A DNA stretch of 57,600 nt from a virus: the IMG/VR virus record IMGVR_UViG_3300050821_007647, positions 1-57,600 of that record; one strand, given 5' to 3'. Positions within the stretch are counted from its first letter, which is position 1, and every line of letters starts with the position of its first letter. Shown piece by piece: positions 36,847 to 57,600 of the stretch. Both the position numbers and the translations under genes were made by a program. The notes under the pieces are model-generated. The model had not been told where the DNA came from. It made no database searches and worked only from the letters and a program-made list of their open reading frames with translations.

Positions 36847-36849
36847 GTA

Positions 36850-38469: not shown

Positions 38470-38474
38470 CCAGT

Positions 38475-38503
38475 ATAGTAGCATACATTTGGTTCCTGCG
38501 CAA
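38475..38503 (-). promoter_or_regulatory. Extended -10 promoter of small RNA 1
   Basis: TTGCGC, 17 bases beginning AGGAACC, TGC then TACTAT. It lies just beyond the end of the polymerase gene. Confidence 0.65.
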
Positions 38504-38506
38504 GCT

Positions 38507-41422: not shown

Positions 41423-41451
41423 GGCGCGAATTCTCCCCATGCATAACCATT

Positions 41452-43579: not shown

Positions 43580-43801
43580 TTATACTCCAGCAATCTCCAT
43601 TAGTTTTAAAACAAAGACTTTTTGTTTTTCTCTATAAACTTCATCCAATGATCTAAGTTTAGCACTTGGACAAGCATCATTAGCATCTTGTCGCCAATAG
43701 TCAATGGTTGCTTTGCTATAGGCAGCATAAAGCTTTCCAAGTTCAGTTTCCAAGAACTTGTTGTGGCGCTCACGTTGGGCTTGCCATTCTTCAGCGCTCA
43801 T
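43580..43801 (-). CDS. Small helical protein between queF and dpdA
   Basis: ATG 43801 with GGAG nine bases upstream is preferred to ATG 43822 inside queF. The 73-residue product is charged and helical (AEEWQAQRERHNKFLE). It is part of the queF-dpdA operon. No family recognised. Confidence 0.6.
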   Translation of the reverse strand: MSAEEWQAQRERHNKFLETELGKLYAAYSKATIDYWRQDANDACPSAKLRSLDEVYREKQKVFVLKLMEIAGV

Positions 43802-43805
43802 GGAG

Positions 43806-44246
43806 TTATTCTCCATCGTCATCCTCTAAATAAGTAATTGGAGTCCACATTGCTGAGGGTTTAATTGCTAGTCCGCCTCTAGGCTTAAAATTACCCTTAA
43901 CTTCTATCCATTTTGGAATAAGAAGCACCCTTAAATCATAGCAAACTTTGGCAACAACCTTTTCATGGAATGTAGGCTCTTGTCGATATGAACCTAAATA
44001 TAGCTTCAAACTTTTCGACTCCACAATCCACTCATCGGGTGAATAGTTAATTTCAATGGAACCGAAATCAGGACCCCCAGTAATGGGGCAAACCGTTGTA
44101 AATTCATCACCAGATATATTAACAAGAGCAGTCATGACTCCAAATGTGGCTGCAAATGGTTTCATGGGATTGGGAACTCTTTCCAATAGCTTTGGATCAG
44201 AGCCAACATAAACATGAGGAACTATTTGACCAAGTGCTGTCACCAT
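43806..44246 (-). CDS. queF: NADPH-dependent 7-cyano-7-deazaguanine reductase (short QueF)
   Basis: A 146-residue unimodular QueF that reduces the preQ0 nitrile to the preQ1 aminomethyl group. The catalytic set is intact: C53 in TVCPITGGPDFG (thioimide nucleophile), D60, the NADPH motif ESKSLK (76-81) and H94-E95. The active-site residues argue for a working reductase and so for preQ1 as the DNA base. Its start overlaps the upstream coiled-coil gene (ATGGTGA). Confidence 0.9.
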   Translation of the reverse strand: MVTALGQIVPHVYVGSDPKLLERVPNPMKPFAATFGVMTALVNISGDEFTTVCPITGGPDFGSIEINYSPDEWIVESKSLKLYLGSYRQEPTFHEKVVAKVCYDLRVLLIPKWIEVKGNFKPRGGLAIKPSAMWTPITYLEDDDGE

Positions 44247-44494
44247 TTCACTCCCACGATGATTGCCGCAATACCTACTAAAGTCAATATAGTCAGACCA
44301 TAAGTAATCAGCATTGTTTGAAATGAAACCTTCATTTCTTGTCGCAGTCGATTAATATCTGTGGACGTGCTGTCAATCCTGACACCAACAACATCAAGTT
44401 TACCCGACAATTTGGCAATATCCGCATACACCTCACCCGTAGCGGCTTCAATCTTAGCCCTTATTTCTTCACGGGAGGGAGTTACATTGCTCAT
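44240..44494 (-). CDS. Coiled-coil protein with C-terminal membrane anchor
   Basis: ATG 44494 gives an 84-residue protein: a coiled coil (residues about 15-55) and one membrane helix (MLITYGLTILTLVGIAAIIV) with a basic end. No ribosome site precedes the ATG, and the -10 of the promoter ends only 12 bases upstream, so the mRNA may be nearly leaderless. First gene of the queF-dpdA-clamp-queE-polymerase operon. Confidence 0.65.
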   Translation of the reverse strand: MSNVTPSREEIRAKIEAATGEVYADIAKLSGKLDVVGVRIDSTSTDINRLRQEMKVSFQTMLITYGLTILTLVGIAAIIVGVKW

Positions 44495-44506
44495 GGCAAC
44501 ACGTAT

Positions 44507-44535
44507 ATCATAGAACCTGCTCCTGTGCAAGTCAA
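44507..44535 (-). promoter_or_regulatory. Promoter of the queF-dpdA-polA operon
   Basis: TTGACT, 17 bases, TATGAT on the minus strand. TTGCAC, the -35 of the small RNA promoters, also lies inside the spacer. The predicted start is about six bases before the ATG at 44494. Confidence 0.6.
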
Positions 44536-44536
44536 A

Positions 44537-44573
44537 GAGAGAGCCGTGGTTGTGAGCAATCACGGCCCTCTCT
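44537..44573 (-). terminator. Hairpin between secreted-protein and queF operons
   Basis: GAGAG-G-GCCGTG pairs with CACGGC-TCTCTC across a 12-base loop; TTTG follows on the minus strand and overlaps the next promoter. Probable terminator of the secreted-protein transcript. Confidence 0.5.
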
Positions 44574-44602
44574 ATCCACCTGAAAGCTTTCGTATCTTGT
44601 GC

Positions 44603-44650
44603 TACGCCAGTTCCGACACAAAGGGGGTGTGAAAAACGGCTGGTACGCTC
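44603..44650 (-). ncRNA. Conserved 3' stem-loop, copy 1
   Basis: Starting a few bases after the stop of the secreted-protein gene, the minus strand carries ACCAG, a paired stem (CCG/CGG, then ACAC/GTGT) and GAACTGGCGTAG. The core TACCAG...GAACTGGCGTA recurs after queC (47675-47733) with different but still paired inner stems. Confidence 0.45.
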
Positions 44651-44659
44651 AGGTGAATA

Positions 44660-45295
44660 TCAGTACTTACACTCGCGACGCACGTTTGGATATTCGTTGC
44701 GACATTCGATTGCCTGTAACCATGCATGACCAAATGCTGCGGCTACGCTGGCGGTTGCTGCTCCTCCTGATACTGATGCAGTGTGTCCCGGAGCAGACGG
44801 CGCAGAAGGAGCAGATGGTGAAGATGACGGCGCTGAAGCTGTGCTTGTACTTGTACTTGTACCGGGACCAGTGCCGGGACCAGTACCAGGTCCAGTTCCG
44901 GGACCAGTGCCGGGACCAGTACCAGGTCCAGTTCCGGGACCAGTGCCTGGGCCGGTACCAGGTCCAGTTCCAGGACCAGTGCCTGGTCCAGTGCCTGGTC
45001 CTGTTCCACCACCACCTGGGGGTCCAACACTAGCTGTTGGACCAGAACCAGAGTTAGCGGTTCCACTATTTTGTCCAATGCTAGCTGACGGTGCACCAAT
45101 AGCTCCACCTTCATTGGCTACAGCGCTAATGTGACCAACAGTTGCAGTAACACCTACACCTGTTTCACCTCCCATACCCCCACTAATGCCTGTGGTTCCT
45201 GAACTAGCAGGACCAGCCGATGCATGCCCTCCTCCCCCAGCTAAGGCTGGGGTGGTTGACAGCATCAGTAGGAGTGATAACGACGACATTTTCAT
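44660..45295 (-). CDS. Secreted low-complexity protein with GTGP repeats
   Basis: A 211-residue protein with a signal peptide (LSLLLMLSTTPALA, cut near residue 20). The mature part is Gly/Ser/Thr/Ala-rich, with about 12 GTGP units (residues about 98-145), a Ser/Thr/Pro block and a C-terminal domain holding the only Cys residues (IECRNEYPNVRRECKY), which may form a disulfide after export. Phage genes rarely encode such exported proteins. Third member of a nearby set (45802, 46207). Function unknown. Confidence 0.65.
   Translation of the reverse strand: MKMSSLSLLLMLSTTPALAGGGGHASAGPASSGTTGISGGMGGETGVGVTATVGHISAVANEGGAIGAPSASIGQNSGTANSGSGPTASVGPPGGGGTGPGTGPGTGPGTGPGTGPGTGPGTGPGTGPGTGPGTGPGTGPGTGPGTSTSTSTASAPSSSPSAPSAPSAPGHTASVSGGAATASVAAAFGHAWLQAIECRNEYPNVRRECKY
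44862..45005 (-). repeat. 12-bp minisatellite encoding GTGP
   Basis: Twelve tandem 12-base units (consensus CCGGGACCAGTG on the + strand), partly arranged as a 36-base triplet of units. Copy number should vary between relatives. Confidence 0.9.
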
Positions 45296-45297
45296 GT

Positions 45298-45738
45298 TTA
45301 GTCTCCCATATAGATTGCAGAGTTGGCGCCATGTTCTCTAAACTCCACGCTATGCACATTAACACGTGGATCATAGTTATTGGCTTCAAGCCATTTGGCT
45401 GCTAGATCGAAGATAAATTTAGCCATCATTTCACAACTTCCAGAGAATGGAAGCATGCGCAACTGAATAAGTTTACGGGTATTTAAAAGTTCAAAATATT
45501 CAAGTTTTGGATCATCTTCCGCAATAATGGTCGTATGATCTAATAGGTGTTCTAATTCTCTTTGAAAGGAATCTAGACCACCAAAATCTACAACCCAATT
45601 CAAATCATTTAATTGCTCGGCACGAAATACAGCTTTGGGCTCTACTGCGTATCCATGCATATATTGACAATGTGATGCTGCCCGCCAATTTCTAAAGGTA
45701 CAAGACATAGGCTTAAAGGTCTTGGTTGAGAAGAACAT
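45298..45738 (-). CDS. queD: 6-carboxy-5,6,7,8-tetrahydropterin synthase (phage-type QueD)
   Basis: A 146-residue T-fold enzyme turning dihydroneopterin triphosphate into 6-carboxy-tetrahydropterin. It shows the pattern AASHCQYMHGYAV (H23, C24, H28), NWVVDFGGLD, LDHTTIIAEDDP and SVEFREHGANSAIY. The third zinc His of classic QueD (HGH) reads HGY, as in related phage and marine versions as I recall them. GAGGACATAG precedes the ATG. Confidence 0.82.
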   Translation of the reverse strand: MFFSTKTFKPMSCTFRNWRAASHCQYMHGYAVEPKAVFRAEQLNDLNWVVDFGGLDSFQRELEHLLDHTTIIAEDDPKLEYFELLNTRKLIQLRMLPFSGSCEMMAKFIFDLAAKWLEANNYDPRVNVHSVEFREHGANSAIYMGD

Positions 45739-45756
45739 CTATGTCCTCATGTGAAA

Positions 45757-45803
45757 ATAGCGCAAACACCCATGTCTTGTTAGGAGCTTGCGCTATCTTT
45801 TTT
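45757..45803. terminator. Bidirectional hairpin terminator before queD
   Basis: ATAGCGCAA (45757-45765) pairs with TTGCGCTAT (45788-45796). TTTT follows on the minus strand and TTTTTT on the plus strand. Confidence 0.55.
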
Positions 45804-46143
45804 AAGGTGAAGTTGTTGCGCCTGAAGACGTTGTCCCAGTTGCTCCAGCTGCTGCTGCTCCAGAACCGCCGGCTCCAGCGGATACAGAGTTTGCAGTTGC
45901 CGCGGCAGGACCGACAGGTGCATTCGAGACACCGAATGAAGAACCTGACGGGTTTCCCTTGCCCGCAGATACGCTTACAGCGCCAAAACCAACAGCATGA
46001 CCATTAGCGCCAGTATTCCCGACACTAACAGAAACGCCACCAGCCGAGGCACCGTGAGCGGATGTTGAGGTTGATGGAGCAGGACCAGCAGCGTAGGCAG
46101 GAAATGTCGCAAGCAACATCGCCATTACGAGGATTTTTTTCAC
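45802..46143 (-). CDS. Secreted Gly/Ala/Ser-rich protein
   Basis: A 113-residue protein starting at GTG with AAAGGAG six bases upstream. Signal peptide KKILVMAMLLATFPAYA, cut near residue 18. The mature part lacks Cys and charged residues and is made of SVSVGNTGANGHAVGFG-like glycine-rich strands. It resembles the 46207 gene in design. Function unknown; a surface or matrix protein is possible. Confidence 0.65.
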   Translation of the reverse strand: MKKILVMAMLLATFPAYAAGPAPSTSTSAHGASAGGVSVSVGNTGANGHAVGFGAVSVSAGKGNPSGSSFGVSNAPVGPAAATANSVSAGAGGSGAAAAGATGTTSSGATTSP

Positions 46144-46169
46144 GAACTGTCTCCTTTAATAGAAATGGC

Positions 46170-46197
46170 CCGCCTCTAATGAAAGAGGCGGGCCAAG
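46170..46197 (-). terminator. GC-rich hairpin between two secreted-protein genes
   Basis: GGCCCGCCTCT pairs with AGAGGCGGGCC. The T-run on the minus strand is weak (ATTTCTATT). Confidence 0.55.
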
Positions 46198-46206
46198 GAG
46201 ACAAGA

Positions 46207-46497
46207 TCAGTGAGTGGAGCCGTGTCCAAAGCCCACGCCAACACCACCGGCGATGCCGGCCGCGTGTCCGACCGAAACGCCGGCCGAATTCGAAGACGAA
46301 GCGCCGATACCGATCGAAGCGCCATGTCCAGCAGCACCGAAACCGAAGCCGGTCGAAGCATTGCCAGCAGCCGCGGCGCCGTTACCAGCAGTCGCGACGC
46401 CCGAAGCAGACGCAGCCGCGCCGGTCGCCGAACTATCAGCGAACGCCGGGGTGGCGAGCGCGAACAGCGCGGCGGTAACGAGAAGGATCTTCTTCAT
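46207..46497 (-). CDS. Secreted Ala/Gly-rich protein, GC-rich gene
   Basis: ATG 46497 with GAGGA about nine bases upstream gives 96 residues, beginning KKILLVTAALFALATPAFA (signal peptide, cut after AFA). The mature part alternates Ala/Ser and Gly (AAGHGASIGIGAS, VGVGFGHG) and has several His. Its codons are clearly richer in GC than most of the phage, which suggests recent transfer from a host. Same design as the two neighbouring secreted proteins. Confidence 0.7.
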   Translation of the reverse strand: MKKILLVTAALFALATPAFADSSATGAAASASGVATAGNGAAAAGNASTGFGFGAAGHGASIGIGASSSNSAGVSVGHAAGIAGGVGVGFGHGSTH

Positions 46498-46516
46498 CAG
46501 ATATTTCCTCACTAGA

Positions 46517-46611
46517 GCAAAAACCGTTGCCCAACGGATCCCAGGTCCCCTGGAATTCTTGTACCAAGAACAGTGATGTTATGGAACTGCCCCTGTTGGT
46601 ATCTCTTTGTT
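46517..46611 (-). ncRNA. Candidate attenuated leader RNA (three hairpins plus T-run)
   Basis: After the promoter at 46646-46618 the transcript has three successive hairpins: TTCTTG/CAAGAA (46556-46570), CCAGG/CCTGG (46541-46553), CCGTT/AACGG (46524-46537), followed by TTTTT (46523-46519). It then continues to the secreted-protein ATG at 46497. It could be an attenuator in the leader or a free RNA of about 95 nt. Confidence 0.45.
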
Positions 46612-46617
46612 GAAGTG

Positions 46618-46646
46618 ATGATTGCACATGTAAATGTCATATGCAA
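46618..46646 (-). promoter_or_regulatory. Extended -10 promoter before secreted-protein gene
   Basis: TTGCAT, 17 bases, TGC then AATCAT on the minus strand, the same spacing as the small RNA promoters. Confidence 0.45.
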
Positions 46647-46692
46647 GAACTATTTTTGAAGGAATACACTACACCTGTTCACATTTTATTAC

Positions 46693-46751
46693 ACTGTAAA
46701 GTGCAGGTATTCTCGCATCCTGCGCATGCGTTGGGGACATTTCTTTACAGT
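46693..46751 (-). repeat. Nested inverted repeat downstream of the basic protein gene
   Basis: ACTGTAAAG pairs with CTTTACAGT across 41 bases that hold a second stem (GCAGG/CCTGC). It may be a 3' mRNA structure or processing site. Confidence 0.4.
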
Positions 46752-46786
46752 CCCGCCCGTGCATCACGTCCACGGGGCCCGTTCTT

Positions 46787-47515
46787 TTAAGCGGCAGCCG
46801 ACGCGTTCTTCTGGGCTTCTGCCGCTGCTGCGGCAGCCGCTGCTTTCGCAGCCTTTTCAGAAGCTTTACGCTCCTTCTCTTTCTCGACCTCAATCTTGCG
46901 TGTCGCGCGTGCCGCGCGTGCCGCGTCAATTTCAGCCTGAGTTGTTGGAACGATTGTATAATGATGCGGCTGACCTTCTGCGCGGGTTGTTACAACCTTG
47001 CATTCAAGCAAAGTCGCAACTTCCGTAAAGCTGGATAGAACGGTTGCTTTGTTCCATCCCAACGCAGCCATTGCCTCGTCAACAGTGGTACCGCCAGCTT
47101 TCTGCAATAGCTGGCGTCCGATATCACGCTTCGACCCAACTTTAAAAGGAGGCTTACCCGCAGCAACGCGAGCCGCAACTTTGGCGGGAGCATCCTTCCA
47201 CATGACGGACCAAGCAACTTTTGGCTTGGGATCTTTCTTCTCGCGCGGCTTGCGCTCTTTCTTCACTTTCTCTTCTGCCGCAGGAGCAGGAGCCGTCTCA
47301 ACAGCTTCAGCGCTCACTTTATCAACCCGAACGCCTTCCGTATTTAGGAGCGACGTGATTTCAGGACCCCACTGAATATGGGCAGGTTGATTGGCAACGA
47401 TAACAAAGCCACCAGCCGCAGCATCATTGACCACTTCGAACGTAATGCTAGGAGCTTTTTCCTGAAGCTTCTTCAGCGTCAAATTCGCGGTGGGTTTCAT
47501 TTTGTAGACTTTCAT
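46787..47515 (-). CDS. DUF3489-like winged-helix protein with histone-like tail
   Basis: A 242-residue protein. Residues about 130-190 (SKRDIGRQLLQKAGGTTVDEAMAALGWNKATVLSSF) resemble the DUF3489 winged-helix domain found in alphaproteobacteria. A Lys/Pro-rich linker precedes it and an Ala/Lys/Glu helix (Ala-rich, like histone H1 tails) ends the protein. It probably binds DNA and may compact it or regulate transcription. It has its own strong promoter and relatively GC-rich codons. Confidence 0.6.
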   Translation of the reverse strand: MKVYKMKPTANLTLKKLQEKAPSITFEVVNDAAAGGFVIVANQPAHIQWGPEITSLLNTEGVRVDKVSAEAVETAPAPAAEEKVKKERKPREKKDPKPKVAWSVMWKDAPAKVAARVAAGKPPFKVGSKRDIGRQLLQKAGGTTVDEAMAALGWNKATVLSSFTEVATLLECKVVTTRAEGQPHHYTIVPTTQAEIDAARAARATRKIEVEKEKERKASEKAAKAAAAAAAAEAQKNASAAA

Positions 47516-47553
47516 TTCATAACCTTTCCCGCATTGGTCTGAACTGTATCCTG

Positions 47554-47581
47554 AATATACACACTATAAGGAACTTGTCAA
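47554..47581 (-). promoter_or_regulatory. Strong sigma70-like promoter
   Basis: TTGACA, 16 bases, TATATT, driving the DUF3489-like gene. Confidence 0.7.
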
Positions 47582-47593
47582 GGCCTCAAATGC

Positions 47594-47653
47594 AAAAATA
47601 AATCGAGAGAGGATCAGGACAGTTCAGGTCTAAAGGGATCCTGACCCTCTCTC
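47594..47653 (-). terminator. Terminator of the queC transcript
   Basis: A 15-base stem with one mismatch (GAGAGAGGGTCAGGA / TCCTGATCCTCTCTC) followed by ATTTATTTTT on the minus strand. Confidence 0.75.
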
Positions 47654-47656
47654 TTT

Positions 47657-47740
47657 CACTTGAACTTTCGTTGACGTGTACGCCAGTTCTACAAGCGATG
47701 GATTTGGTCGAGCCAAACCTGTAGCTGGTATGTTCAAGTG
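47657..47740 (-). ncRNA. Conserved 3' stem-loop, copy 2 (after queC)
   Basis: Nested pairing: CACTTGAAC/GTTCAAGTG (including the queC stop codon), then CCAG/CTGG with a two-base bulge, CTACA/TGTAG, and TTTGG/CCAAA. The CCAGTTC...CTGGTA core matches copy 1 at 44603-44650, while the inner stems differ yet remain paired. It may be a 3' UTR-derived small RNA or a stabilising element. Confidence 0.5.
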
Positions 47741-48543
47741 ATTAGTAATCCCTCCATCTTTGCTCGTTTGATCAATGGATCAATCATTCGCGCTTCCTCA
47801 AATCCAGAAGCCCTGAGAACGCTCGCATGGTTCTTTGCTGGGGGGTAAGCCCCGGCGTAATCGGTTGTCGTAAAAGCCATTGCTTCCATACAGCCAGGAA
47901 GCCCCATGCCAATCTCAACAATTTCTTTTTTACTTTTTCCTTGCAACGGAGTAATAATATCTATCTTGGTTCGGGTTGCTAGCTCCATTGTATTGGCTAA
48001 TGACTCCACAAACTCAGGAGTGCAATCAGGATAATTAGCGTTATCAGCACCATTAATCCCAGTCATGATTGCATCGTATTGAAGCGCAACTGCATAAGAG
48101 TACGCGAGCGAGAGAAATACAGCATTGCGACCGGGAACGAACGTCAATTCAACTCGATCTTGAAGCTTTGCGTCCATCTCATTAATATTTGAATATTCTT
48201 CCAAGGGTTCAGAACTTGTCAAAGGCGACTTGCCCTCAAATATGGATCCAAGTCGTTTGACATATCGGTATTGAGGCATTTCCACATGGATATTTGCTCG
48301 CATCCATGCCAATTGATAGACAAAGGCAGCGCTATCTAATTCGCGGGCATGACGTTGCCCATAGTCAAATGATACAGCACCTATTTTGCTGTATAGACCA
48401 GAATGAAGCGCCCAAAATAAACAAGTGGTGCTATCTTGACCACCCGACAAAACAACAAGAACTTTGGATCTTACATCCGCGGCACGTTCTGTAACCAATT
48501 TTGGTAATCTTCTTGGCGCCACCGCCACTTTTGCTCTTGCCAT
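47734..48543 (-). CDS. queC: QueC homologue (7-cyano-7-deazaguanine synthase) lacking zinc cysteines
   Basis: A 269-residue PP-loop enzyme, in bacteria making preQ0 from 7-carboxy-7-deazaguanine, ammonia and ATP. The ATP motif LSGGQDSTTCLFW (33-45), FDYGQRH and a family-like FVPGRNAVFLSLAYSYA are present. But the C-terminal zinc motif of QueC (CGxCxxCxxR) reads PAKNHASVLRASGFEEA, with no cysteines. There is a basic 25-residue N-terminal extension. AGGA precedes ATG 48543. Either a zinc-free variant or an altered product; queF presence implies preQ0 is made somewhere. Confidence 0.82.
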   Translation of the reverse strand: MARAKVAVAPRRLPKLVTERAADVRSKVLVVLSGGQDSTTCLFWALHSGLYSKIGAVSFDYGQRHARELDSAAFVYQLAWMRANIHVEMPQYRYVKRLGSIFEGKSPLTSSEPLEEYSNINEMDAKLQDRVELTFVPGRNAVFLSLAYSYAVALQYDAIMTGINGADNANYPDCTPEFVESLANTMELATRTKIDIITPLQGKSKKEIVEIGMGLPGCMEAMAFTTTDYAGAYPPAKNHASVLRASGFEEARMIDPLIKRAKMEGLLIT

Positions 48544-48656
48544 TGGCGATCCTGTTGGCGTAATTCACGCCGCTCAAGTTGAAGCTGTTGCTCACACTGC
48601 CACGTGTTTACGCTACAATTGCCAATCAAGAGCAAAGCGACTAGGACGTTACTCAT
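48471..48656 (-). CDS. Small exported or lipoprotein-like peptide
   Basis: ATG 48656 overlaps the end of the previous gene; 61 residues. The N-terminus (NVLVALLLIGNCSV) is a hydrophobic signal ending near Cys14, but Asn before the Cys is not a normal lipobox. The rest is Gln/Arg/Trp-rich and helical. It overlaps the queC start by 73 bases. An Rz1-like spanin is a thin possibility. Confidence 0.45.
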   Translation of the reverse strand: MSNVLVALLLIGNCSVNTWQCEQQLQLERRELRQQDRQWQEQKWRWRQEDYQNWLQNVPRM

Positions 48657-48816
48657 AGGTTCTCCGCTCTTTACGCTTTGCCGCTGCTTCGCGAATTGCT
48701 GCAAGCAATTCTGGACTGTAAGTACTTGTTCTAGCGGTTGTTTTCATGATCATATTACCATTGTCTTTATAGATATAGGTGCTTCGATCACGTCCACGCG
48801 GTTTAAATCTAGTCAC
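48649..48816 (-). CDS. 55-residue basic peptide
   Basis: GTG 48816 overlaps the upstream stop (GTGA) and AGGA lies six bases before it. The product MTRFKPRGRDRSTYIY... ends with a helix rich in Ala/Lys/Arg (LLAAIREAAAKRKERR). Likely nucleic-acid binding by composition only. Confidence 0.5.
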   Translation of the reverse strand: MTRFKPRGRDRSTYIYKDNGNMIMKTTARTSTYSPELLAAIREAAAKRKERRTYE

Positions 48817-49007
48817 TGTAATCCTGCTGGTTTCAAGAGTTTTTTTGCGTGTTCAATCCGCCGTAAAACTTTCTGGGCGTCTAAAACGCGGTTTAAATTT
48901 TCTCGTGTTGGTTGATCGTCATATTCCTGAGTCAATGTCGCTAGATATAATTCCATAGCATTTTTAATAATGCCAAAATCTTCTTTCATTTCATCAAGGA
49001 TAAACAT
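48813..49007 (-). CDS. Small acidic helical protein
   Basis: A 64-residue charged helical protein with no motif; ribosome site weak. Start of a run of coupled small genes leading into queC. Confidence 0.5.
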   Translation of the reverse strand: MFILDEMKEDFGIIKNAMELYLATLTQEYDDQPTRENLNRVLDAQKVLRRIEHAKKLLKPAGLQ

Positions 49008-49027
49008 CGATGCCCCGAGAAGTAAGA

Positions 49028-49052
49028 GGAGCGCATAAAGCGCTCCTTTTTT
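49028..49052 (+). terminator. Hairpin with plus-strand T-run
   Basis: GGAGCGC-ATAAA-GCGCTCC followed by TTTTTT on the + strand. No + strand gene precedes it, and on the minus strand the T-run is absent. It may stop an antisense transcript. Confidence 0.5.
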
Positions 49053-49055
49053 ATT

Positions 49056-49934
49056 TCAGGCCGCCACCTCTTCAGGAGCGGACAGCTTCTTATAAGTATC
49101 GCTTGCCAAGTTGAAAATGTCAATGTTTAATTTCATCGACCGATCAATGGCATTAATGGCATGGGTGCGAACGTGCGTTCGAACCGTCCCCCAGCGCTCC
49201 GTGGTCGTCACGGAATCAGCTTCAAGACCGCCGCGCAGGACATTCTCCTGAATGACGTTGAAGATGGTCCACAAGTCCTGGCCCTTGTCTTCGGCGCGCC
49301 GAACACCAAGAAGTTGGTCCACCTTGATGGGGGTGCGGACAACGTCATCAGCATCCTTGAATGCGCGATGATGAACCTGCATCGCGAGGCTATAAGCTTC
49401 GGACGAGGGAAGCATCAACTTTGACCAATCACGCGGTGCCTCGAGGATTTCGTTGGCCCGATTGATGATCTTGTAGGACCCTTCAATCACCTTATCCATC
49501 GTCGCGCGTTCACCGATATGAGCGATCCGCTCGGCGCCGAATTCCTCAGTCTGAATGACAGCGCCATTCAAACACGCAATGCGGAATAGTCCCGCATTGA
49601 GCGAATAAGCGGCGGTACCATCATTGGCATTCTTCAACACGACCTCAGCAATCGTATCGTTGACTTTCAGGTCCCGTGTCTCGTCAAAGCGACGGAGACG
49701 AACAACGTGCTTTGTGAACGGGCGGCGGCTGAAGCTGCGCGATCCCTGCTCTTGTACAGAGACAGGAAAGAAGCCCTCATTGGCAAGGCCACGGAGAACT
49801 TCGATTGTGGCAATGGGTTTAAACTTTTCCGAACGAGCCGGAGAAGCCGTGTCGCCGAAGATCGAGGGAGCAACACGATGCAAGTCATCTTCGGAAAGAG
49901 GACGACCCTGGTTGAAAGTAGGACGAATAGTCAT
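49056..49934 (-). CDS. DUF932-family phage/plasmid protein
   Basis: A 292-residue protein with the DUF932 pattern: N-terminal Arg/Pro region, VLRGLANEGFFPVSVQEQ, VVRLRRFD, and ACLNGAV followed by helices. Family members occur on plasmids and phages and their function is unclear; some are antirestriction-associated. Its own promoter (TTGACA-17-TATGGT) and GAAAGGA ribosome site suggest high expression. GC-richer than adjacent genes. Confidence 0.72.
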   Translation of the reverse strand: MTIRPTFNQGRPLSEDDLHRVAPSIFGDTASPARSEKFKPIATIEVLRGLANEGFFPVSVQEQGSRSFSRRPFTKHVVRLRRFDETRDLKVNDTIAEVVLKNANDGTAAYSLNAGLFRIACLNGAVIQTEEFGAERIAHIGERATMDKVIEGSYKIINRANEILEAPRDWSKLMLPSSEAYSLAMQVHHRAFKDADDVVRTPIKVDQLLGVRRAEDKGQDLWTIFNVIQENVLRGGLEADSVTTTERWGTVRTHVRTHAINAIDRSMKLNIDIFNLASDTYKKLSAPEEVAA

Positions 49935-49975
49935 CTGATAAGGTTCCTTTCATGCTCGTGATTGAGCGTATGAGA

Positions 49976-50004
49976 ACCATAGTTCATGATTGGTTTTCTG
50001 TCAA
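49976..50004 (-). promoter_or_regulatory. Promoter of the DUF932 gene
   Basis: TTGACA, 17 bases, TATGGT on the minus strand; divergent from the + strand promoter at 50057. Confidence 0.7.
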
Positions 50005-50056
50005 GAATTATTTTGCGGTCCTTTGCACTTTTTTAATTCCTTAGATCAGATTTTGC

Positions 50057-50085
50057 TTGTACGAAGAACCGAAGCGTAGTACACA
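50057..50085 (+). promoter_or_regulatory. Promoter of the + strand island
   Basis: TTGTAC, 17 bases containing AGAACC, TACACA. The -10 ends six bases before the ATG at 50092, which predicts a leaderless mRNA. Confidence 0.5.
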
Positions 50086-50091
50086 GTTTAA

Positions 50092-50883
50092 ATGATACAG
50101 GATCTTACTATACCCTCTATGCTGGAGCAGATGAAAACTGCTTTAACTAATGCTATACCTATGGCTCAAGTCCTTGAAATTAAGGAAAGAGCCAAAACTA
50201 TCTATGACAAAATAAAACGAGAAATAAGCCTTCAAAAAGCTAAAGGTGCGCATAAAGAAATGGTGGCGCTTAGTCTTCACATGCAAGGTAATGCTCGCAA
50301 GGTTATGATTCGTGCCAATATTCTCTTAGCAGATGAATATGATACGGCTAAAGAAAAAGGAGAAGTTGCCGTTCCAGGTGATATTAAATCACAAAATTTA
50401 TCTGCGATAGCGCAACCTACGCTATCGCAAAAGGAAACTGTAAATCAGCTTCCTATTCAAAAGGAATTAGGAATAGATCATCGGGTAATGTCTGATTTCC
50501 GTAAATTAAAAGAATTTGATAAAAAGAATCCTGGCGTCATAGAAACCAAAATTGATGAACTTGTTGAGGCAGGACAAGAACCTACACAAGCTGCCATCAA
50601 CAGGATGATTGACCCACCTAAACTTAAAACCACTTTTGAGTGGCAAGATGAATTAATTAAAAAATCAGAAAAAATGGTCAGTGTCCATGTGCTGATCGAG
50701 GAACTCCTCCCACTGTCTGAACGGTTGCTAGAACAATCAAAGCTTCATATTGCTATGCTTTCACGAGCAGAAATAGCAATGGTAGCAGGAGATATCAAGC
50801 GATTAATAGACAAATGGGCGAGTGATGACCCGACTGTTCGCCGGGTTCGTGGTCGTGTCGTCCCCTTTAAATCCGGTAAGTAA
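50092..50883 (+). CDS. Unknown helical DNA-transaction-like protein
   Basis: A 263-residue protein. No ribosome site; the promoter position implies a leaderless start. The first 110 residues are helical and resemble the N-terminal region of phage or plasmid proteins with VLEIKERAKTIYDKIK-type helices. A central segment (LGIDHRVMSDFRKLKEFDKKNPG) looks like a helix-turn-helix. It ends in a basic tail. It is coupled to the ParB-fold-like gene downstream. Function unknown. Confidence 0.55.
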   Translation: MIQDLTIPSMLEQMKTALTNAIPMAQVLEIKERAKTIYDKIKREISLQKAKGAHKEMVALSLHMQGNARKVMIRANILLADEYDTAKEKGEVAVPGDIKSQNLSAIAQPTLSQKETVNQLPIQKELGIDHRVMSDFRKLKEFDKKNPGVIETKIDELVEAGQEPTQAAINRMIDPPKLKTTFEWQDELIKKSEKMVSVHVLIEELLPLSERLLEQSKLHIAMLSRAEIAMVAGDIKRLIDKWASDDPTVRRVRGRVVPFKSGK

Positions 50884-50894
50884 TGGAGGTCCTA

Positions 50895-51776
50895 ATGGGC
50901 CACCACTTTAAGTATGTAAGTAGTGAAACTGTAGATTTGACAAAGGCAGTTGTCGATGGATTCGTCGCATTGCCTGGATCAGCTACAGAACGTAGCTTGA
51001 AACCCGCCCGGATAGAATATCTTCAAGATGTGGTTCTTGGAGGTTCTGCCGTCGTGTTTCAGTGGGCACAGGCAAAAGTCACTGAGACAGGTGAAATTTA
51101 CCGTGTCAACGGGCAGCATAGTTCTTACATGTTATCACAACTCAACGGACAGTTTCCGAATGGGTTGAAAGTACACAAAGACACTTACGAAGTGGATAAT
51201 CTTGCTTCACTGGCATATCTATTTCGTATGTTCGACCCTCGCACATCGGCACGTTCTGTGCATGACGTTGCGGGTGCCTATCAAGGTCTCCATCTAAGCC
51301 TTAAAGATGTACCTAAGATGACCGCCAAAATGACAATTGACGGTACATCATGGTTTTTGAAGATTGTTCGTGGTGATAACATTCCTAGTGGAGATGATCG
51401 CTATGAACTATTTAACAATGCTAAAATGCACCCATTCATTCGAATGGCTGGGGGCATTTTAAACAAAATCAAGACGCCTGAATTCACAAACCCTGTCATA
51501 GGTGCTATGTATGGTACCTGGGAACGGGAACCTGTGGAAGCTGAAGCGTTTTGGTCAGACGTTGCGAAACAGGGTGGAGGCAATGACTCTAACCATCCTG
51601 CCGCAGTTCTTGATACTTGGCTCGTAGCAATCCGAGATAAAACCATTGAGAAAAAGCCAAGCGACCGAGAAATCTATCGTGCGTGCATTGTGGCATGGAA
51701 TGCTTATCGTCACCATCGGACACTTGACAAGATCGGTAAATACGATCCGAAGAAAGGTGCTCCTGATATTGACTAA
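50895..51776 (+). CDS. ParB/DGQHR-like nucleotide-binding protein
   Basis: ATG 50895 (GGAGG five bases upstream) is preferred to ATG 50883; 293 residues. The segment EIYRVNGQHSSYML resembles the 'DGQHR/NGQHR' motif of ParB-like and DndB-type proteins. The remainder is helical, with no nuclease motif seen. It forms a + strand pair with the gene before it, inside an otherwise minus-strand block. The role may be modification-linked or segregation-linked; unproven. Confidence 0.5.
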   Translation: MGHHFKYVSSETVDLTKAVVDGFVALPGSATERSLKPARIEYLQDVVLGGSAVVFQWAQAKVTETGEIYRVNGQHSSYMLSQLNGQFPNGLKVHKDTYEVDNLASLAYLFRMFDPRTSARSVHDVAGAYQGLHLSLKDVPKMTAKMTIDGTSWFLKIVRGDNIPSGDDRYELFNNAKMHPFIRMAGGILNKIKTPEFTNPVIGAMYGTWEREPVEAEAFWSDVAKQGGGNDSNHPAAVLDTWLVAIRDKTIEKKPSDREIYRACIVAWNAYRHHRTLDKIGKYDPKKGAPDID

Positions 51777-51808
51777 ATAAAAACCGCCCTCTCTTGCGAG
51801 AGGGCGGC
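51777..51808 (-). terminator. Convergent terminator
   Basis: CCGCCCTCTC-GCAA-GAGAGGGCGG followed by TTTTTATTT on the minus strand, ending the ssDNA-binding-like operon. A second stem (CTTAAGCC/GGCTTAAG) lies just upstream at about 51815-51847. Confidence 0.75.
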
Positions 51809-51850
51809 TATCACTTAAGCCGAGGGCTTCGGTTCCTGAGGCTTAAGCAA

Positions 51851-52741
51851 TCAGAACGGGATATCTTCAGCCAGAGGCTTGTCTGCGTCTTGATTTCCAC
51901 GAGGGTTATATTCTCGGGTTCTTCCGCCACTCCCATTGCTGCTTTCTTCACTGCGCGGAGTCACTACAGTTTGATGCAGTTCAGCGGCAAGCTTGTGATA
52001 CTCGCGCGCTTGTTGCAAGATCATGGTTCCTCGTGAATAATCTTCGATCCAACCTGCTTGCTTGACAACAGGTAAAACCCAAGACCCTAGATCGTTACGT
52101 GTTCCAACGCATGTCAGAAGATAAGACATGGCGAACAAAGGTGGGTGATAAGCAACACCGTCTTTGTCTCTGCGGATCATTGCTTGTGCCAATGATATCC
52201 ACCCCCGCGATGCTTTCAGCGCTGTGGAACTAAATGTGATCACTGCGCGTGTCATCAATTCTGTTTCTGTTCCTTCGTCATCCGCAATGCTTGGATTGAT
52301 TTCCTTGCCCGAGATAACGAGAACGAACCAAGTGGCGGTGGTAATGATTTCATGCCCTTGATCGTTGGTGTCTCGTCCTGTCTTTTCGTCACGGTGGGTT
52401 GTGTCAAGAATAGAGCGATTGGTGCCGTGATTTCTAACGAGACCACCACCGTCTATTCTCTTCTTCCACTCAATATAATGAGTGACGAATTTAACTGGCA
52501 CCACGACAATATCACGAAACAATCGTTTCGTAACTGTGTCAAGCCATAGCCCTTCGGCAGCGCCTTTGATATAGGCTGCTTCACTGCGTTTCGTTTCGTC
52601 ATGCGCACTTTGCAGGAGTTTCCAAAAGGGTAAGACTAAATCATTAGCCGTTACATCTTCGAAACCAGAACCAGCATCAGCAGAATAATCGAATTCTGCT
52701 GGAAGCTTGTTGTTTTCTACAGTTACAGGTGTCTTAGCCAT
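51851..52741 (-). CDS. Putative single-stranded DNA-binding protein
   Basis: A 296-residue protein. The core is a beta-rich domain (VVPVKFVTHYIEWKKRIDGG). A flexible Ser/Gly/Arg/Asn region follows, ending with DADKPLAEDIPF. The acidic end resembles SSB C-terminal tips (DDDIPF) that recruit replication partners. It lies in the same strand block as the primase-helicase. Assigned from the tail motif and context. Confidence 0.6.
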   Translation of the reverse strand: MAKTPVTVENNKLPAEFDYSADAGSGFEDVTANDLVLPFWKLLQSAHDETKRSEAAYIKGAAEGLWLDTVTKRLFRDIVVVPVKFVTHYIEWKKRIDGGGLVRNHGTNRSILDTTHRDEKTGRDTNDQGHEIITTATWFVLVISGKEINPSIADDEGTETELMTRAVITFSSTALKASRGWISLAQAMIRRDKDGVAYHPPLFAMSYLLTCVGTRNDLGSWVLPVVKQAGWIEDYSRGTMILQQAREYHKLAAELHQTVVTPRSEESSNGSGGRTREYNPRGNQDADKPLAEDIPF

Positions 52742-52742
52742 A

Positions 52743-52934
52743 TCACTCTTCCTTTAGGACACGTCTTACTGGTTCAAATGCTTTGTTGATGCGGTCCAAT
52801 CTCTCAACATTGCATGTATAACACCAAGGGCCCCAAGCTGTGATGCAACCAAGCTTACCACAGCCTACACACTTCGTTTTAGGTCGAAGCTTATTACCTG
52901 GATGATTTCTATTGGCATAAGGACGATCAATCAT
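52743..52934 (-). CDS. Small zinc-finger protein
   Basis: A 63-residue protein with CVGCGKLGC and CYTC, probably one zinc site. It overlaps the upstream gene by eight bases and ends one base before the SSB-like gene. May assist replication or recombination. Confidence 0.6.
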   Translation of the reverse strand: MIDRPYANRNHPGNKLRPKTKCVGCGKLGCITAWGPWCYTCNVERLDRINKAFEPVRRVLKEE

Positions 52935-53469
52935 CCTTAACCTTTTTCACCCGAGCAATAGACCCAACCATAGCATTTAATTTGTCTTTGTCAAATAATG
53001 TACCTGCACGAACAAGACCCTTAACCATTGCTGTATAAGTCATATGATGGATAGTTGTTTTAATGTGTGGCTTTAAAGCTTTTGAAATGGCATTCAATGC
53101 GTCAACAACCTTTCGCTCCATTATAGCATCACCTTTTGGAAGATCAAGTTCCAATGCCCGCTTGATATTACCTCCTAGCCCTAAATCAATCACATAATTT
53201 AAGGCTTTCTCACGGGCTTGTGGATTATCTTCTTTTGGCAATGAGGCAAGAATAAGTGGCTCTATTTCTACGATTCGATTACCCACCCCAACGATGGGAG
53301 GATCAAGGCCAAGTTCAAATATGGCTTCGGGCAATTGAAATTCGCGGATTTGTTTTTGTTCTTCTTCTAGCCGCTCAATCTCTTCTGCCATTTCCTCAAG
53401 TTTGTCTTCAATAGCCACAAGTCTAGCGGCTTTGGTCTTGACATAATCAAGGTCAAGTGGTTCTGTCAT
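52927..53469 (-). CDS. Conserved phage coiled-coil protein near the replication genes
   Basis: ATG 53469 overlaps the previous stop (ATGA); the long frame from 53562 is rejected. The 180-residue product begins with a coiled coil (residues about 12-45) and a beta domain (PPIVGVGNRIVEIEPLIL). Its C-terminal helix (TIHHMTYTAMVKGLVRAG) resembles a motif in widespread phage proteins of unknown function encoded near replication genes. Confidence 0.65.
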   Translation of the reverse strand: MTEPLDLDYVKTKAARLVAIEDKLEEMAEEIERLEEEQKQIREFQLPEAIFELGLDPPIVGVGNRIVEIEPLILASLPKEDNPQAREKALNYVIDLGLGGNIKRALELDLPKGDAIMERKVVDALNAISKALKPHIKTTIHHMTYTAMVKGLVRAGTLFDKDKLNAMVGSIARVKKVKDD

Positions 53470-53639
53470 AGGCGACCTGTAATAAGGAGAACAACCAGTA
53501 TAATGATAATGATACCAACTATACCTATACCCCCGTTTCCATATCCATAGCCGTATTGCCAAGGTGCTCCGACATGGCTACCAAAGCCACCCAATAGCAC
53601 GATGATAAGGATGATGATAAGGAGAAGGCTGATAGACAT
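53466..53639 (-). CDS. DUF3309-family small membrane protein
   Basis: A 57-residue protein, too short for most gene tracks. Start ATG 53639 has AGGAG eight bases upstream. It has two hydrophobic helices around GAPWQYGYGYGNGGIG, the DUF3309 layout (hydrophobic, then WPYSRGWGYGPSGG-like, then hydrophobic, then GRL). This family is widespread in alphaproteobacteria. Its phage role is unknown, and it has its own promoter (53687-53660). Confidence 0.75.
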   Translation of the reverse strand: MSISLLLIIILIIVLLGGFGSHVGAPWQYGYGYGNGGIGIVGIIIIILVVLLITGRL

Positions 53640-53659
53640 TTTCTAACTCCTACATTGAC

Positions 53660-53687
53660 ATATGACACAGAATTGGTTCCTGTGCAA
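53660..53687 (-). promoter_or_regulatory. Promoter before the DUF3309 operon
   Basis: TTGCAC, 16 bases beginning AGGAACC, TCATAT on the minus strand, right after the ProQ-like gene. Confidence 0.5.
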
Positions 53688-53694
53688 GCGTTAT

Positions 53695-54042
53695 CTATTC
53701 CCAGAACTTTTTCTGTGGTTTAGGATCGATCTGATCCTGGGCATAGAACCTATCTGTATCACTAACTTGGCTCACAGGATTACCATCCAAATTATGTCTC
53801 ATTGAACCTGGAGCCGCAACAGCTATATGGTAGGTTTTGCTCGTGCAAAATTCTTTAAGGAAGTTTTTTATCCCCGCAGGAGATACCATATGGGGATAAG
53901 ACAAGAGAACCTCATAAATTCCAAGCATAAGAGGAACTGGGGGGACTTTACGGAACACAGGGAATGATTTTAACCATTCACCTGCATCTTTGGTTGCTTT
54001 ATTCAAGTCTTCATCTTTGTTAGTGAACGGAATCACGGACAT
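53695..54042 (-). CDS. ProQ/FinO-domain RNA chaperone
   Basis: ATG 54042 (GGAG seven bases upstream, one base after the helicase stop) gives 115 residues. The ProQ/FinO pattern is visible: AGEWLKSFPVFRKVPPVPLMLGI, then IKNFLKEFCTSKTYHIAV, then GSMRHNLDGNPVSQVS. The key Tyr and Arg (TYH, MRHNLDG) and the LxxFPxxF start match the family. It is nearly the minimal domain with a Gln/Lys-rich end. These proteins bind structured small RNAs and mRNA 3' ends. Coupled to the primase-helicase. Confidence 0.72.
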   Translation of the reverse strand: MSVIPFTNKDEDLNKATKDAGEWLKSFPVFRKVPPVPLMLGIYEVLLSYPHMVSPAGIKNFLKEFCTSKTYHIAVAAPGSMRHNLDGNPVSQVSDTDRFYAQDQIDPKPQKKFWE

Positions 54043-54043
54043 A

Positions 54044-56488
54044 TTATTCTCCGTCTTGACGTATTTCTGGAAGAGGCTCTTCATCATCTAGTGGATTGTT
54101 ACTTATGATCCATCGTCCCTTTCCTCCCATAACTGGAGAAGGATGATAATGAACATATTCCTTTACATCTTTTGGTTCTCCAGTAGACCATACTCTATAT
54201 TGATTACCTCTATATGATGATTTTCCACTATTATAACCTAAATTTGCCATAAGTTGACCAATATCTCTTCCTCTAAAGCTTGTCTTCTGTTCCCTCATCC
54301 AAATAACAATCGATGATGCCATCATACCTCTATGGGATAAGTTAATTGGTCCAGAATTAATATAAGGTTCACGGTGAATTACTTCTTCCATCAATATCTT
54401 GGAATCTGTAACCTCTCTGTAATTCTCATTTTGTATCCACATTGTATTGATAAGTTCTTCTGGAACATTTAACGGAGCCTCTGGATCTGAATCCTCTTTT
54501 GAATTGTGGATATGCGCGTACATTGCATCCAGATTATTGTATAACCAGTTTAATCCTAGGTTCTTTCCATTTGTAATAGGTGTACTAAGTGCTGTGGTAA
54601 TATCAATAATAATCCATCGCCTATTACCCATGTCAAGGTTAAGTATTTCTGGATTGTTTGTAGTAAATATCCTTATCGCATGAAAATACGCCTTTTCTTC
54701 TCTAACTCCATATTTGCGTTTGAAATTTATTTCTCCCATATTTGCTAAATGCTTCAAGTCTCCAGCTAATCCTTTACCTACTGTTGATCCAAGAACTTTG
54801 TCGGCAAACTCGATTACTGTACGGCATGCGGCAGATTGCGCAAGCGCAAGTAAGCCATGATCTCCAACTCCGTGCAAATAGGACAATTCTACCGTATCAT
54901 TATACCTATTTGAAGTCTTTGTTGGACCAGGCTTCCCCCCAGCGAGGACATGGCAGAACAACGATTTACCAACTCCTTCAGGCCCAACGAGTGCAATCAA
55001 ACATTGGGGGACGGTAGATTGTCGATTAATAAAAGGACGTGTCTGTAGCGCATACATATCCCGCATAATCAAGTGGCCTTTCAGTCGATTAGTGCGATTA
55101 TCTGGAAGATTGAAAGATTTAATCAAGAGTAGTTCTGGATTATTATCTTCATTCATTTGAACTAAGCCGCGCTTTACTCTCTCCATGCATTCATCATAGA
55201 TGATCGAACGAACAGGCTCTCCTTCAAGTGGTCCAAATATTATATCCTTCCAGTCATCTTTTCGGCAGTATCTTAACTGTGGTTCCCGTCCCATAATACC
55301 ACAACAACGTTCCGCTATGTCAGCTATCTCTGGTCCCTCAGGGTACAGACTGTTATTTAACGACATGTTCTTGAGTTTCAAGATCCGTGCTCCAATTGAT
55401 ATATCGTAATGAAAGGATTCTACACTTTCTTTAAAAGCCTTTTTCATATTCTTGCGATTAGATGGATCAATCTTATCTGTACCTTCTTCAAATACCCATT
55501 GCTCTGAATAGGGACGGGAGTTAACAATCCCAGTGATCCGCTCTAAAGGCGTAACTCCAAATGGTAATGGATCAGCATCATCCCACCCGATAGGTGCGCG
55601 AGGTGGTGGTTCTGCTATTCGAATATTTTCTGGATTAACTCTAAAATCCTCTAATCGTCTCGCAAGAATTCCTGCTTCTTTCAATCCCGCGTTATCATTG
55701 TCGCGGACGATGACATGATAAGCTGATCGTAAATCCAATATACTATCATTAACTCCTCTGATCAAAAAATTATCGAACAAAGGTCTCAATTGTAGGTTTG
55801 TTTGACGTGCTCCAGGCTCTCCTGCTAATATTCCCAGCGTAACGATTTCCAAATTCACACTATCAAGGTATTCATCTATACCCTCTTGCTCTAGGAGCGC
55901 TTCACCCCCAAGTCTCGCTTTCTCTCCCTCGAACCATAGGAACATCAACGCTGCTGGGGGAATTGTATCATAATTGCGAGATACTGCAACCTCTTTGTTA
56001 TATTCCTCCTCTCGCTTTTTGAATTCATCAACCGCTGCAAGCGCGGTAGGAGCATTAGTTGGAACAAATAATCCTGCTTCAAACAATGCCGATGACAATG
56101 AGCAAAATGCACCTCGCTCGTCATGTGCTGGATCATCGTTGCCGGTGCGATCACCAATATAGATATGTTTGTATTCCTTTGCTGCATGGCCATTTGGTGT
56201 TAATGTCGCCAGTCTTAATTCCAAAAAAATAATCGACATATCTTTATTGTGGACTGGAGTCACAGTCGCGATATGATCTAACCGATTGGGATTTTCGACT
56301 TTCAACAGGTGCTCAATCGTCTTAATTGCTGCACCATTATTAGTTCGTAGCGCTTCAGTAAAGCCTACAAAATCACTGCCACCTGTTCTTAGCAAGCGCA
56401 TAACAGGATAGGGAGTGATCTTAACGTTGCGGTTTTTTCTTGGTTGTTTTGTGCGTTGTTTTCGTGCAGATTGCGCCGCATAGCTCAT
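54044..56488 (-). CDS. Primase-helicase (Toprim plus SF3/DUF5906-type)
   Basis: An 814-residue replication protein. Toprim-like motifs: LWFEGEK (186-190) and RDNDNAG (262-268). A helicase part starts near 490 with Walker A GPEGVGKS (502-509), then FADKVLGS, RIFTTNNPEILNLDMGNRRW and a C-terminal winged-helix region. It should prime and unwind DNA for the family A polymerase. It is translated with the ProQ-like gene. The N-terminal basic region (KQRTKQPRKNRN) is probably flexible. Confidence 0.8.
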   Translation of the reverse strand: MSYAAQSARKQRTKQPRKNRNVKITPYPVMRLLRTGGSDFVGFTEALRTNNGAAIKTIEHLLKVENPNRLDHIATVTPVHNKDMSIIFLELRLATLTPNGHAAKEYKHIYIGDRTGNDDPAHDERGAFCSLSSALFEAGLFVPTNAPTALAAVDEFKKREEEYNKEVAVSRNYDTIPPAALMFLWFEGEKARLGGEALLEQEGIDEYLDSVNLEIVTLGILAGEPGARQTNLQLRPLFDNFLIRGVNDSILDLRSAYHVIVRDNDNAGLKEAGILARRLEDFRVNPENIRIAEPPPRAPIGWDDADPLPFGVTPLERITGIVNSRPYSEQWVFEEGTDKIDPSNRKNMKKAFKESVESFHYDISIGARILKLKNMSLNNSLYPEGPEIADIAERCCGIMGREPQLRYCRKDDWKDIIFGPLEGEPVRSIIYDECMERVKRGLVQMNEDNNPELLLIKSFNLPDNRTNRLKGHLIMRDMYALQTRPFINRQSTVPQCLIALVGPEGVGKSLFCHVLAGGKPGPTKTSNRYNDTVELSYLHGVGDHGLLALAQSAACRTVIEFADKVLGSTVGKGLAGDLKHLANMGEINFKRKYGVREEKAYFHAIRIFTTNNPEILNLDMGNRRWIIIDITTALSTPITNGKNLGLNWLYNNLDAMYAHIHNSKEDSDPEAPLNVPEELINTMWIQNENYREVTDSKILMEEVIHREPYINSGPINLSHRGMMASSIVIWMREQKTSFRGRDIGQLMANLGYNSGKSSYRGNQYRVWSTGEPKDVKEYVHYHPSPVMGGKGRWIISNNPLDDEEPLPEIRQDGE

Positions 56489-56545
56489 GATGAAACCAAC
56501 ATGAGTTCTATGGATGCTTGAGGGGCATCCAAATGATTAAGTTTT

Positions 56546-56764
56546 TCAGGCAGCTAAACGAGTAACAATTTTTGTCGCCTTAAATTGAGGCGACTCTATC
56601 CATTTATCTAGATCAGGAATTGCATAAACGCTATTACGACCGTATCTTGAATAAGAGGGTCCTTGTTTCTTCCCCGCTAAATTCATCAGGTAAAAATTTC
56701 CCACGTCATAACCCTTTGATCGAAGGTATTGAGTGGCTTGGGAGCGGGTAATATGATTGTCCAT
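56546..56764 (-). CDS. Excisionase/MerR-like HTH protein
   Basis: ATG 56764 with AGGAGG nine bases upstream is preferred to ATG 56788. The 72-residue protein fits the small HTH family: ITRSQATQYLRSKGY, GPSYSRYGRNSVYAIPDLDKWI. It may regulate the replication operon. No integrase is present in the window. Confidence 0.65.
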   Translation of the reverse strand: MDNHITRSQATQYLRSKGYDVGNFYLMNLAGKKQGPSYSRYGRNSVYAIPDLDKWIESPQFKATKIVTRLAA

Positions 56765-56786
56765 TTGATGCGTCCTCCTAATATGC

Positions 56787-56816
56787 ATACTAACACGGAT
56801 ATTATACCTAAGTCAA
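56787..56816 (-). promoter_or_regulatory. Promoter of the replication operon
   Basis: TTGACT, 18 bases, TAGTAT preceded by TGT on the minus strand, upstream of the HTH gene. Confidence 0.5.
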
Positions 56817-56947
56817 TATCAAAGTTTACAATTCTCTTAATACCGGAAAACTATACAGGAATTTTGGAGTTACGCTAAAAACAAAACCGGGTGGGGGTCA
56901 TTTGAAAAAGAGGCTATTTAATAATGGTGAGTTAATATTAATTGGGT

Positions 56948-57244
56948 TCAATTAGTAATTAATCTCCAGCCAAAGACCACGACCCGTGCATCAACAGTCC
57001 TTTTCTTAGGATCAGGTTTAATTTGCATACAGCAACAATCCTCAATGGGATGATATCCGTTATGACACTTGATGCAGAATCCACTTCTGCCTTCTTCCTT
57101 AAGATACCTATTTGTCTCAACCGTGACAATTTCGCCTTTATCCCAGCACTGTTTATTTCGAAGAAGGAATTGAATTCGCATCCCTTCCTCTATGTCTTTA
57201 TATTCTAGGCTATCGAGGATTTCTTTTTTGGATTTTTTCGGCAT
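56948..57244 (-). CDS. Small Cys-rich protein
   Basis: ATG 57244 (GAGGTGG upstream) gives 98 residues; a GTG at 57292 is a weaker option. CIKCHNGYHP and CCCM suggest metal binding. Basic N-terminus (PKKSKKE). Function unknown. Confidence 0.5.
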   Translation of the reverse strand: MPKKSKKEILDSLEYKDIEEGMRIQFLLRNKQCWDKGEIVTVETNRYLKEEGRSGFCIKCHNGYHPIEDCCCMQIKPDPKKRTVDARVVVFGWRLITN

Positions 57245-57295
57245 TTTTTCCACCTCGGCGGCAGGTGAAATCGGTTTCTGGAATATGACCACTCC

Positions 57296-57595
57296 TCACT
57301 CGGGTGGTTTCGATTTCTCCAATTTCAATTTCTCCATTAGCATAACCGTTGCCCTCGTCTTTTGGATTTTCACAAGCTCTGGATTACCTGCTATACTTAG
57401 CATTTCATTATCGGTTAGTGGTCTAAACTTGAGGTCAACAGTAAATGCCATAATATGTCCACACTTTATACATATTGAAATATCGCCAGCTTGAGGGCCT
57501 CTACCACCCATTACATGACCAATCCTATCCATTACATAGCCACAGCCAAGACATGCTTGCGGAATTGTCGTGGTTTCTGATAAATACTTGCTCAT
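57296..57595 (-). CDS. Zinc-ribbon protein
   Basis: A 99-residue protein with CLGCGY and CIKCGH about 26 residues apart (one zinc ribbon) and a basic helical C-terminus (MLMEKLKLEKSKPPE). No family recognised; its start lies five bases inside the right edge. Confidence 0.6.
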   Translation of the reverse strand: MSKYLSETTTIPQACLGCGYVMDRIGHVMGGRGPQAGDISICIKCGHIMAFTVDLKFRPLTDNEMLSIAGNPELVKIQKTRATVMLMEKLKLEKSKPPE

Positions 57596-57600
57596 GACTT

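Follow-up and report, generated by a model that had tools for sequence, protein, structure and literature searches.

FinO-domain proteins bind structured RNA that ends in a single-stranded 3' tail and act as RNA chaperones. Members of the ProQ/FinO family are described as small and basic, with masses of 14-27 kDa (PMC9977716). In RocC of Legionella pneumophila, the last RNA nucleotide occupies a pocket made of Gly52, Thr82, Tyr87 and Arg97, to which the helix that follows contributes Asn115 and Lys119, two positions that are usually His/Tyr and Gln/Arg, respectively, in the family (PMC9674577). The hairpin is held by an N-cap consisting of Ser70, Lys71, Ser72 and Arg75, in which the replacement of Arg75 by Lys is the major natural substitution (PMC9674577). 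In E. coli ProQ, Tyr70 and Arg80 are required for RNA binding, and changes at Lys35, Lys54, Leu71 and Asp82 weaken it (PMC7192607). On plasmid pCol1B9, FopA works with Inc and repZ, and phage-encoded members of the family were named in the same 2023 review (PMC9977716). No functional work on a FinO-domain protein from a phage turned up in the literature searched, which comprised few subscription journals.

The window analyzed here, a 57,600-nt stretch of viral DNA, contains an unbroken open reading frame of 115 codons on its minus strand (53695..54042), which we refer to as proQ; on the opposite strand, stops interrupt the interval. An earlier reading made from the sequence only had described a 115-residue product with three ProQ/FinO motifs, all of which are indeed present, but the gene lies on the minus strand. 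The coupling to a primase-helicase that it had also claimed was confirmed: the ATG of proQ at position 54042 is located 1 nt past the stop codon TAA (54046-54044) of the gene directly upstream (54044..56488, minus strand), which codes for a VapE-like primase-helicase of 814 aa (PF05272, E = 1.5e-8; PHROG 256/1313/15962, DNA helicase/primase). A ribosome-binding site, GGAG (54049..54052, minus strand), was read directly within the 3' end of the primase gene (...GACGGAGAATAATATG) at the usual distance from this ATG. An alternative in-frame ATG upstream, at position 54087, would give a product of 130 aa and lacks such a ribosome-binding site; this start is less likely because the GGAG precedes the ATG located immediately after the primase stop codon. 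The GC content of proQ (0.417 compared to 0.409 for the primase gene) resembles that of the neighboring genes. Contamination by a host gene was rejected, as the open reading frame sits inside a run of phage genes with similar base composition.

A search of Pfam with hmmscan returned ProQ/FinO (PF04352) as the sole family matched by the 115-aa protein, far beyond chance (E = 2.9e-15, 56.6 bits compared to a gathering cut-off of 27, residues 24-111), and this protein was the only PF04352 match in the whole record. We regard its membership in the ProQ/FinO family as virtually certain. The PHROGs that it matched are unnamed families, the best being phrog_21591 (E = 1.1e-7), and E. coli ProQ and RocC came out on top of a phmmer search against solved structures, though only with E = 0.025. 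With a mass of 13.1 kDa, a pI of 7.8 and a charge of about +1, the protein is nearly neutral, which is a low charge for this family. Gammaproteobacterial ProQ proper carries a long basic linker and a C-terminal Tudor-like domain, whereas the phage protein ends 26 residues past LDGNP.

Given an alignment with nine related FinO domains from phages, plasmids and chromosomes, AlphaFold2 produced a model with a mean pLDDT of 80.6, in which 54 residues score at least 90; the single sequence yielded a poor model (pLDDT 43.7). The modeled fold combines helices with strands at residues 81-83 and 89-92, as in the two-stranded beta hairpin of FinO domains. The sequence-only reading had proposed an AlphaFold check, and the model does match known members of the family: VIA-align returned RNA-bound RocC (Z = 14.3; 102 residues, 1.9 Å), NMB1681 (Z = 13.4), FinO (Z = 9.3) and Lpp1663 (Z = 8.1), all entries listed being FinO-domain proteins, and Foldseek matched the same four and nothing else at an E-value below 3. 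Since family members were in the AlphaFold2 alignment, the structural match is supporting evidence rather than independent proof. RocC, the best match, has the same 3' nucleotide pocket, but is a cellular core-genome protein. NMB1681, the minimal ProQ of Neisseria meningitidis, likewise consists of a FinO domain with short extensions only; it is, however, a chromosomal global RNA binder with mapped RNA targets.

Residues G41, T67, Y71, R82, Y100 and Q104 of the phage protein align with the six pocket residues of RocC, and all of them are usual for the family. The equivalents of the two residues required in E. coli ProQ, Tyr70 and Arg80, are also kept (Y71 and R82). The N-cap motif Ser-Lys-Ser/Thr-x-x-Arg, which grips the hairpin phosphates, is altered: in the alignment S54 is kept, but Lys is replaced by P55, Ser/Thr by A56 and Arg by K59, where RocC has Lys71, Ser72 and Arg75. 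The last of these changes is conservative (Arg58 in E. coli ProQ). At the four positions whose alteration weakens RNA binding by E. coli ProQ, the phage protein has M39 instead of Lys35, P55 instead of Lys54, H72 instead of Leu71 and N84 instead of Asp82. Because the pocket residues are kept and the N-cap residues are changed, the phage protein seems to have preserved its recognition of the RNA 3' end and to hold the hairpin less firmly.

The sequence-only reading had implied that ProQ was known from bacteria and plasmids only, a novelty that does not stand, as annotated phage copies are numerous and the 2023 review already lists phage members (PMC9977716). With the ProQ of Aeromonas phage LAh_9 as query, tblastn retrieved 73 phage records (Aeromonas, Erwinia, Escherichia, Salmonella, Vibrio, Enterobacter and Hafnia phages), several of them annotated as "proQ: RNA chaperone", "ProQ/FINO family protein" or "ProQ/FinO domain protein". 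LAh_9 gp24 ("putative RNA chaperone ProQ") and the ProQ of Erwinia Kolesnikvirus are, like the protein described here, phage FinO domains, of 98-153 aa and Pfam-positive. LAh_9 ProQ differs from our protein in its basic character (pI 9.8 compared to 7.8) and gene neighborhood, and the two share no more than about 35% identity over 75 residues. The BFVD holds further viral members, the best match being the "Putative ProQ/FINO family protein" of Sinorhizobium phage phiM9 (E = 4e-7, 31% identity), which is the closest viral structure there but has 179 aa; the phiM9 protein gave no match to our query by tblastn in the phage collection at E = 1. The sole IMG/VR match to the 115-aa protein was rejected as a chance occurrence of DPKPQKKFW in another reading frame. 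The phage proQ is a divergent further member of a known family, which extends the known distribution of that family without changing it. What sets this member apart is a minor, unexplained departure from the family pattern in its N-cap and charge. FinO-domain proteins recur on phages and plasmids, and a member that is small, coupled to a primase and altered in its N-cap would offer a compact test case for the role of the domain in a virus.

The nearest proteins by sequence are encoded by plasmids of the Rhizobiaceae. A search of 7.3 Gb of plasmid sequence gave 197 matching records, 163 of which are from Rhizobium; the lowest E-value is 5e-6, and the best matches share about 31-39% identity with the query. 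Among genome contigs the best matches were from Rhizobium tropici, Brucella tritici and Ochrobactrum. These plasmid ProQ/FINO proteins, e.g. those of Allorhizobium ampelinum pAtS4b (WP_012655063.1), Rhizobium sp. N731 (WP_064807231.1) and R. tropici, share with the phage protein an M/V-R-H-N/D-L/I-D-G block followed by S-x-x-D-R, as well as a location on mobile elements. They differ in being 154-166 aa long, with a C-terminal extension and the N-cap Arg kept, features absent from the phage protein. A small tree placed the phage protein beside the Rhizobiaceae plasmid group with modest support (81/86) and a long branch (2.2), and tblastn with the plasmid ProQ of R. tropici matched no phage. Some of the Rhizobiaceae plasmid genes lie within a few kilobases of repABC, partition or ParB-like genes. 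On a plasmid of Photobacterium sp. CCB-ST2H9 (NZ_CP100427.1), a ProQ/FINO gene is found near genes for a "head processing protein", restriction-modification and HU proteins; from these neighbors, this replicon may be a phage-plasmid.

Downstream of proQ, the minus strand carries a putative ORF for a hydrophobic, Gly-rich product of 57 aa (53466..53639; ORF list), a gene for a DUF7307 protein resembling gp33 of phage Pam3 (52927..53472; PF23984, E = 1e-6; PHROG 2378, E = 5e-14), the start of which is uncertain (ATG at 53472 assumed, longest ORF from 53562), and a gene for a Cys-rich protein of 63 aa (52743..52934; ORF list) that matched no Pfam family at cut-off. The run ends with a gene for a Pam3 gp34-like protein (51851..52741; PF23977, E = 1.6e-46) that has matches in 470 phage records. 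Judged by their order and spacing, the genes on the minus strand would be transcribed together as far as a terminator at 51782..51809. Neither the primase-helicase nor the gp34-like protein had a relative in IMG/VR, and none was found for the primase-helicase in the phage collection.

The major capsid protein shares about 53% identity with those of Klebsiella phage Chronis and Pantoea phage PdC23, a set of phages that also provides the matches to the baseplate J protein. The DNA polymerase is closest to those of Pseudomonas phages, YuA type included, and the closest relatives of the gp34-like protein are scattered over various phages, Bordetella and YuA-type phages among them. By these similarities the phage is a mosaic, in which the virion genes (1285-26000) are like those of the gammaproteobacterial phages Chronis and PdC23 and the replication genes (38500-57600) like those of Pseudomonas YuA-type phages. 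Its host is likely a proteobacterium. PF04352 is absent from the phages with shared virion genes (Klebsiella Chronis, Pantoea PdC23, Yersinia, Shewanella, Actinobacillus and E. coli Rac-SA53). As Chronis-type phages lack a ProQ gene, proQ either came in along with the replication genes or was a separate acquisition.

The sequence-only reading had also placed the gene next to multiple small-RNA-like loci. No Rfam family matched anywhere in the window, no tRNA was found in it, and what the loci amount to is strong intrinsic terminators and intergenic hairpins. Positions 38000-57600 contain 25 terminator-like sites compared to 18.6 ± 4.5 in shuffles, with few long U-tailed stems standing out. Folding of 72 intergenic segments identified four as clearly structured (36542-36661, 51777-51850, about 47554-47673 and about 38327-38446); the structured segments sit at gene ends and we read them mostly as terminators. 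The first of them forms the left end of a 716-nt gap between convergent gene blocks (36542-37257) and contains very stable hairpins (z about -7).

At the end of the proQ gene run, the 77-nt 3' untranslated region (51774-51850, minus strand) folds at -39.6 kcal/mol compared to -21.4 ± 3.2 kcal/mol in shuffles (z = -5.7). It consists of a first stem-loop (51811..51850, minus strand) and an intrinsic terminator with a 12-bp stem and a U-rich tail (51782..51809, minus strand), found by both the terminator scan and the fold, which is a candidate ligand of the ProQ protein. FinP is built likewise, with two stem-loops and a 3' tail. The two-hairpin region can equally be read as a strong terminator following a structured untranslated region. 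A crude duplex test of this region against 53 start regions gave no convincing target (best z = -2.9).

We propose that the gene codes for a minimal FinO-domain RNA-binding protein, produced together with the phage replication genes, that would bind the RNA 3' ends of terminators and thereby protect or chaperone mostly phage transcripts. What this analysis shows or predicts extends from the gene, coupled to the primase, and its domain to the modeled fold and an intact pocket for the 3' nucleotide; binding, protection and the choice of targets we infer from characterized relatives. That the protein binds terminator-like RNA 3' ends is highly probable, and the explanation as a whole, with protection of mostly phage transcripts, is probable. 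Taken on its own, the claim that it would act mainly on phage transcripts stands at even chances. Its likeliest clients would be the phage's own terminator-ended transcripts, foremost the U-tailed, two-hairpin 3' untranslated region of its own gene run, although it is rather doubtful that this region is the main ligand. Counting against the proposal are the N-cap changes, M39, P55, H72 and N84, the near-neutral charge, the fact that U-tailed hairpins are ordinary terminators, and the outcome of the duplex test, which gave the 3' untranslated region no convincing target.

The protein could instead serve in host takeover, binding terminator-ended host sRNAs or mRNAs in competition with host ProQ or Hfq. 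A FinO domain alone can suffice for global recognition of RNA by structure, as in the minimal meningococcal ProQ (PMC7272453), and phages with related virion genes infect Gammaproteobacteria, which commonly encode ProQ (PMC9977716). The location of proQ among phage replication genes speaks against a function directed at the host. We consider this explanation unlikely.

The coupling of proQ to the primase-helicase gene is also what would be expected of a replication control like that of FopA, in which the protein would stabilize a cis-antisense RNA that pairs with the primase-helicase mRNA and so tune phage replication. The precedent of FopA itself (PMC9977716) and the kinship with Rhizobiaceae plasmid proteins, some encoded near partition or repABC genes, agree with this possibility. 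However, the plus (antisense) strand within the primase gene has just one weak terminator-like site, no Rfam antisense RNA occurs in the window, and the gaps upstream of the primase gene are absent from the structured segments, making such control improbable.

We give similarly little credence to a degenerate FinO domain that would be drifting, or kept for another use such as protein-protein contact, and have no useful affinity for RNA. The loss of the N-cap Lys, the altered equivalents of ProQ K35 and D82, the near-neutral charge and the long tree branch are consistent with decay, but each of the six residues that form the 3' nucleotide pocket is usual for the family, and the ORF is uninterrupted and has a good ribosome-binding site in front of it. 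Least probable is a FinO-type riboregulation circuit dedicated to the phage, in which the primase/FinO-protein gene run would end in a FinP-like two-hairpin RNA stabilized by the protein and delivered to phage targets, so that one transcript would carry a FinO-domain chaperone together with its sRNA.

Elsewhere on the minus strand of the replication half lie genes for a QueE-like radical SAM enzyme (40537-41250), a queuine tRNA-ribosyltransferase-like, possibly DpdA-like, protein (42602-43579), a QueF-like protein (43806-44246) and QueC (47734-48543). Together they make up a 7-deazaguanine set, which points to modification of guanines in the DNA of this phage. Between the QueF-like and QueC genes, three adjacent small ORFs (44660-46512, minus strand) code for products of 211, 113 and 101 aa, each with a signal-peptide-like start followed by a Gly/Ala/Ser-rich sequence, and the first of them contains a tandem array of 36-nt (PGTG) repeats at 44862-45007.
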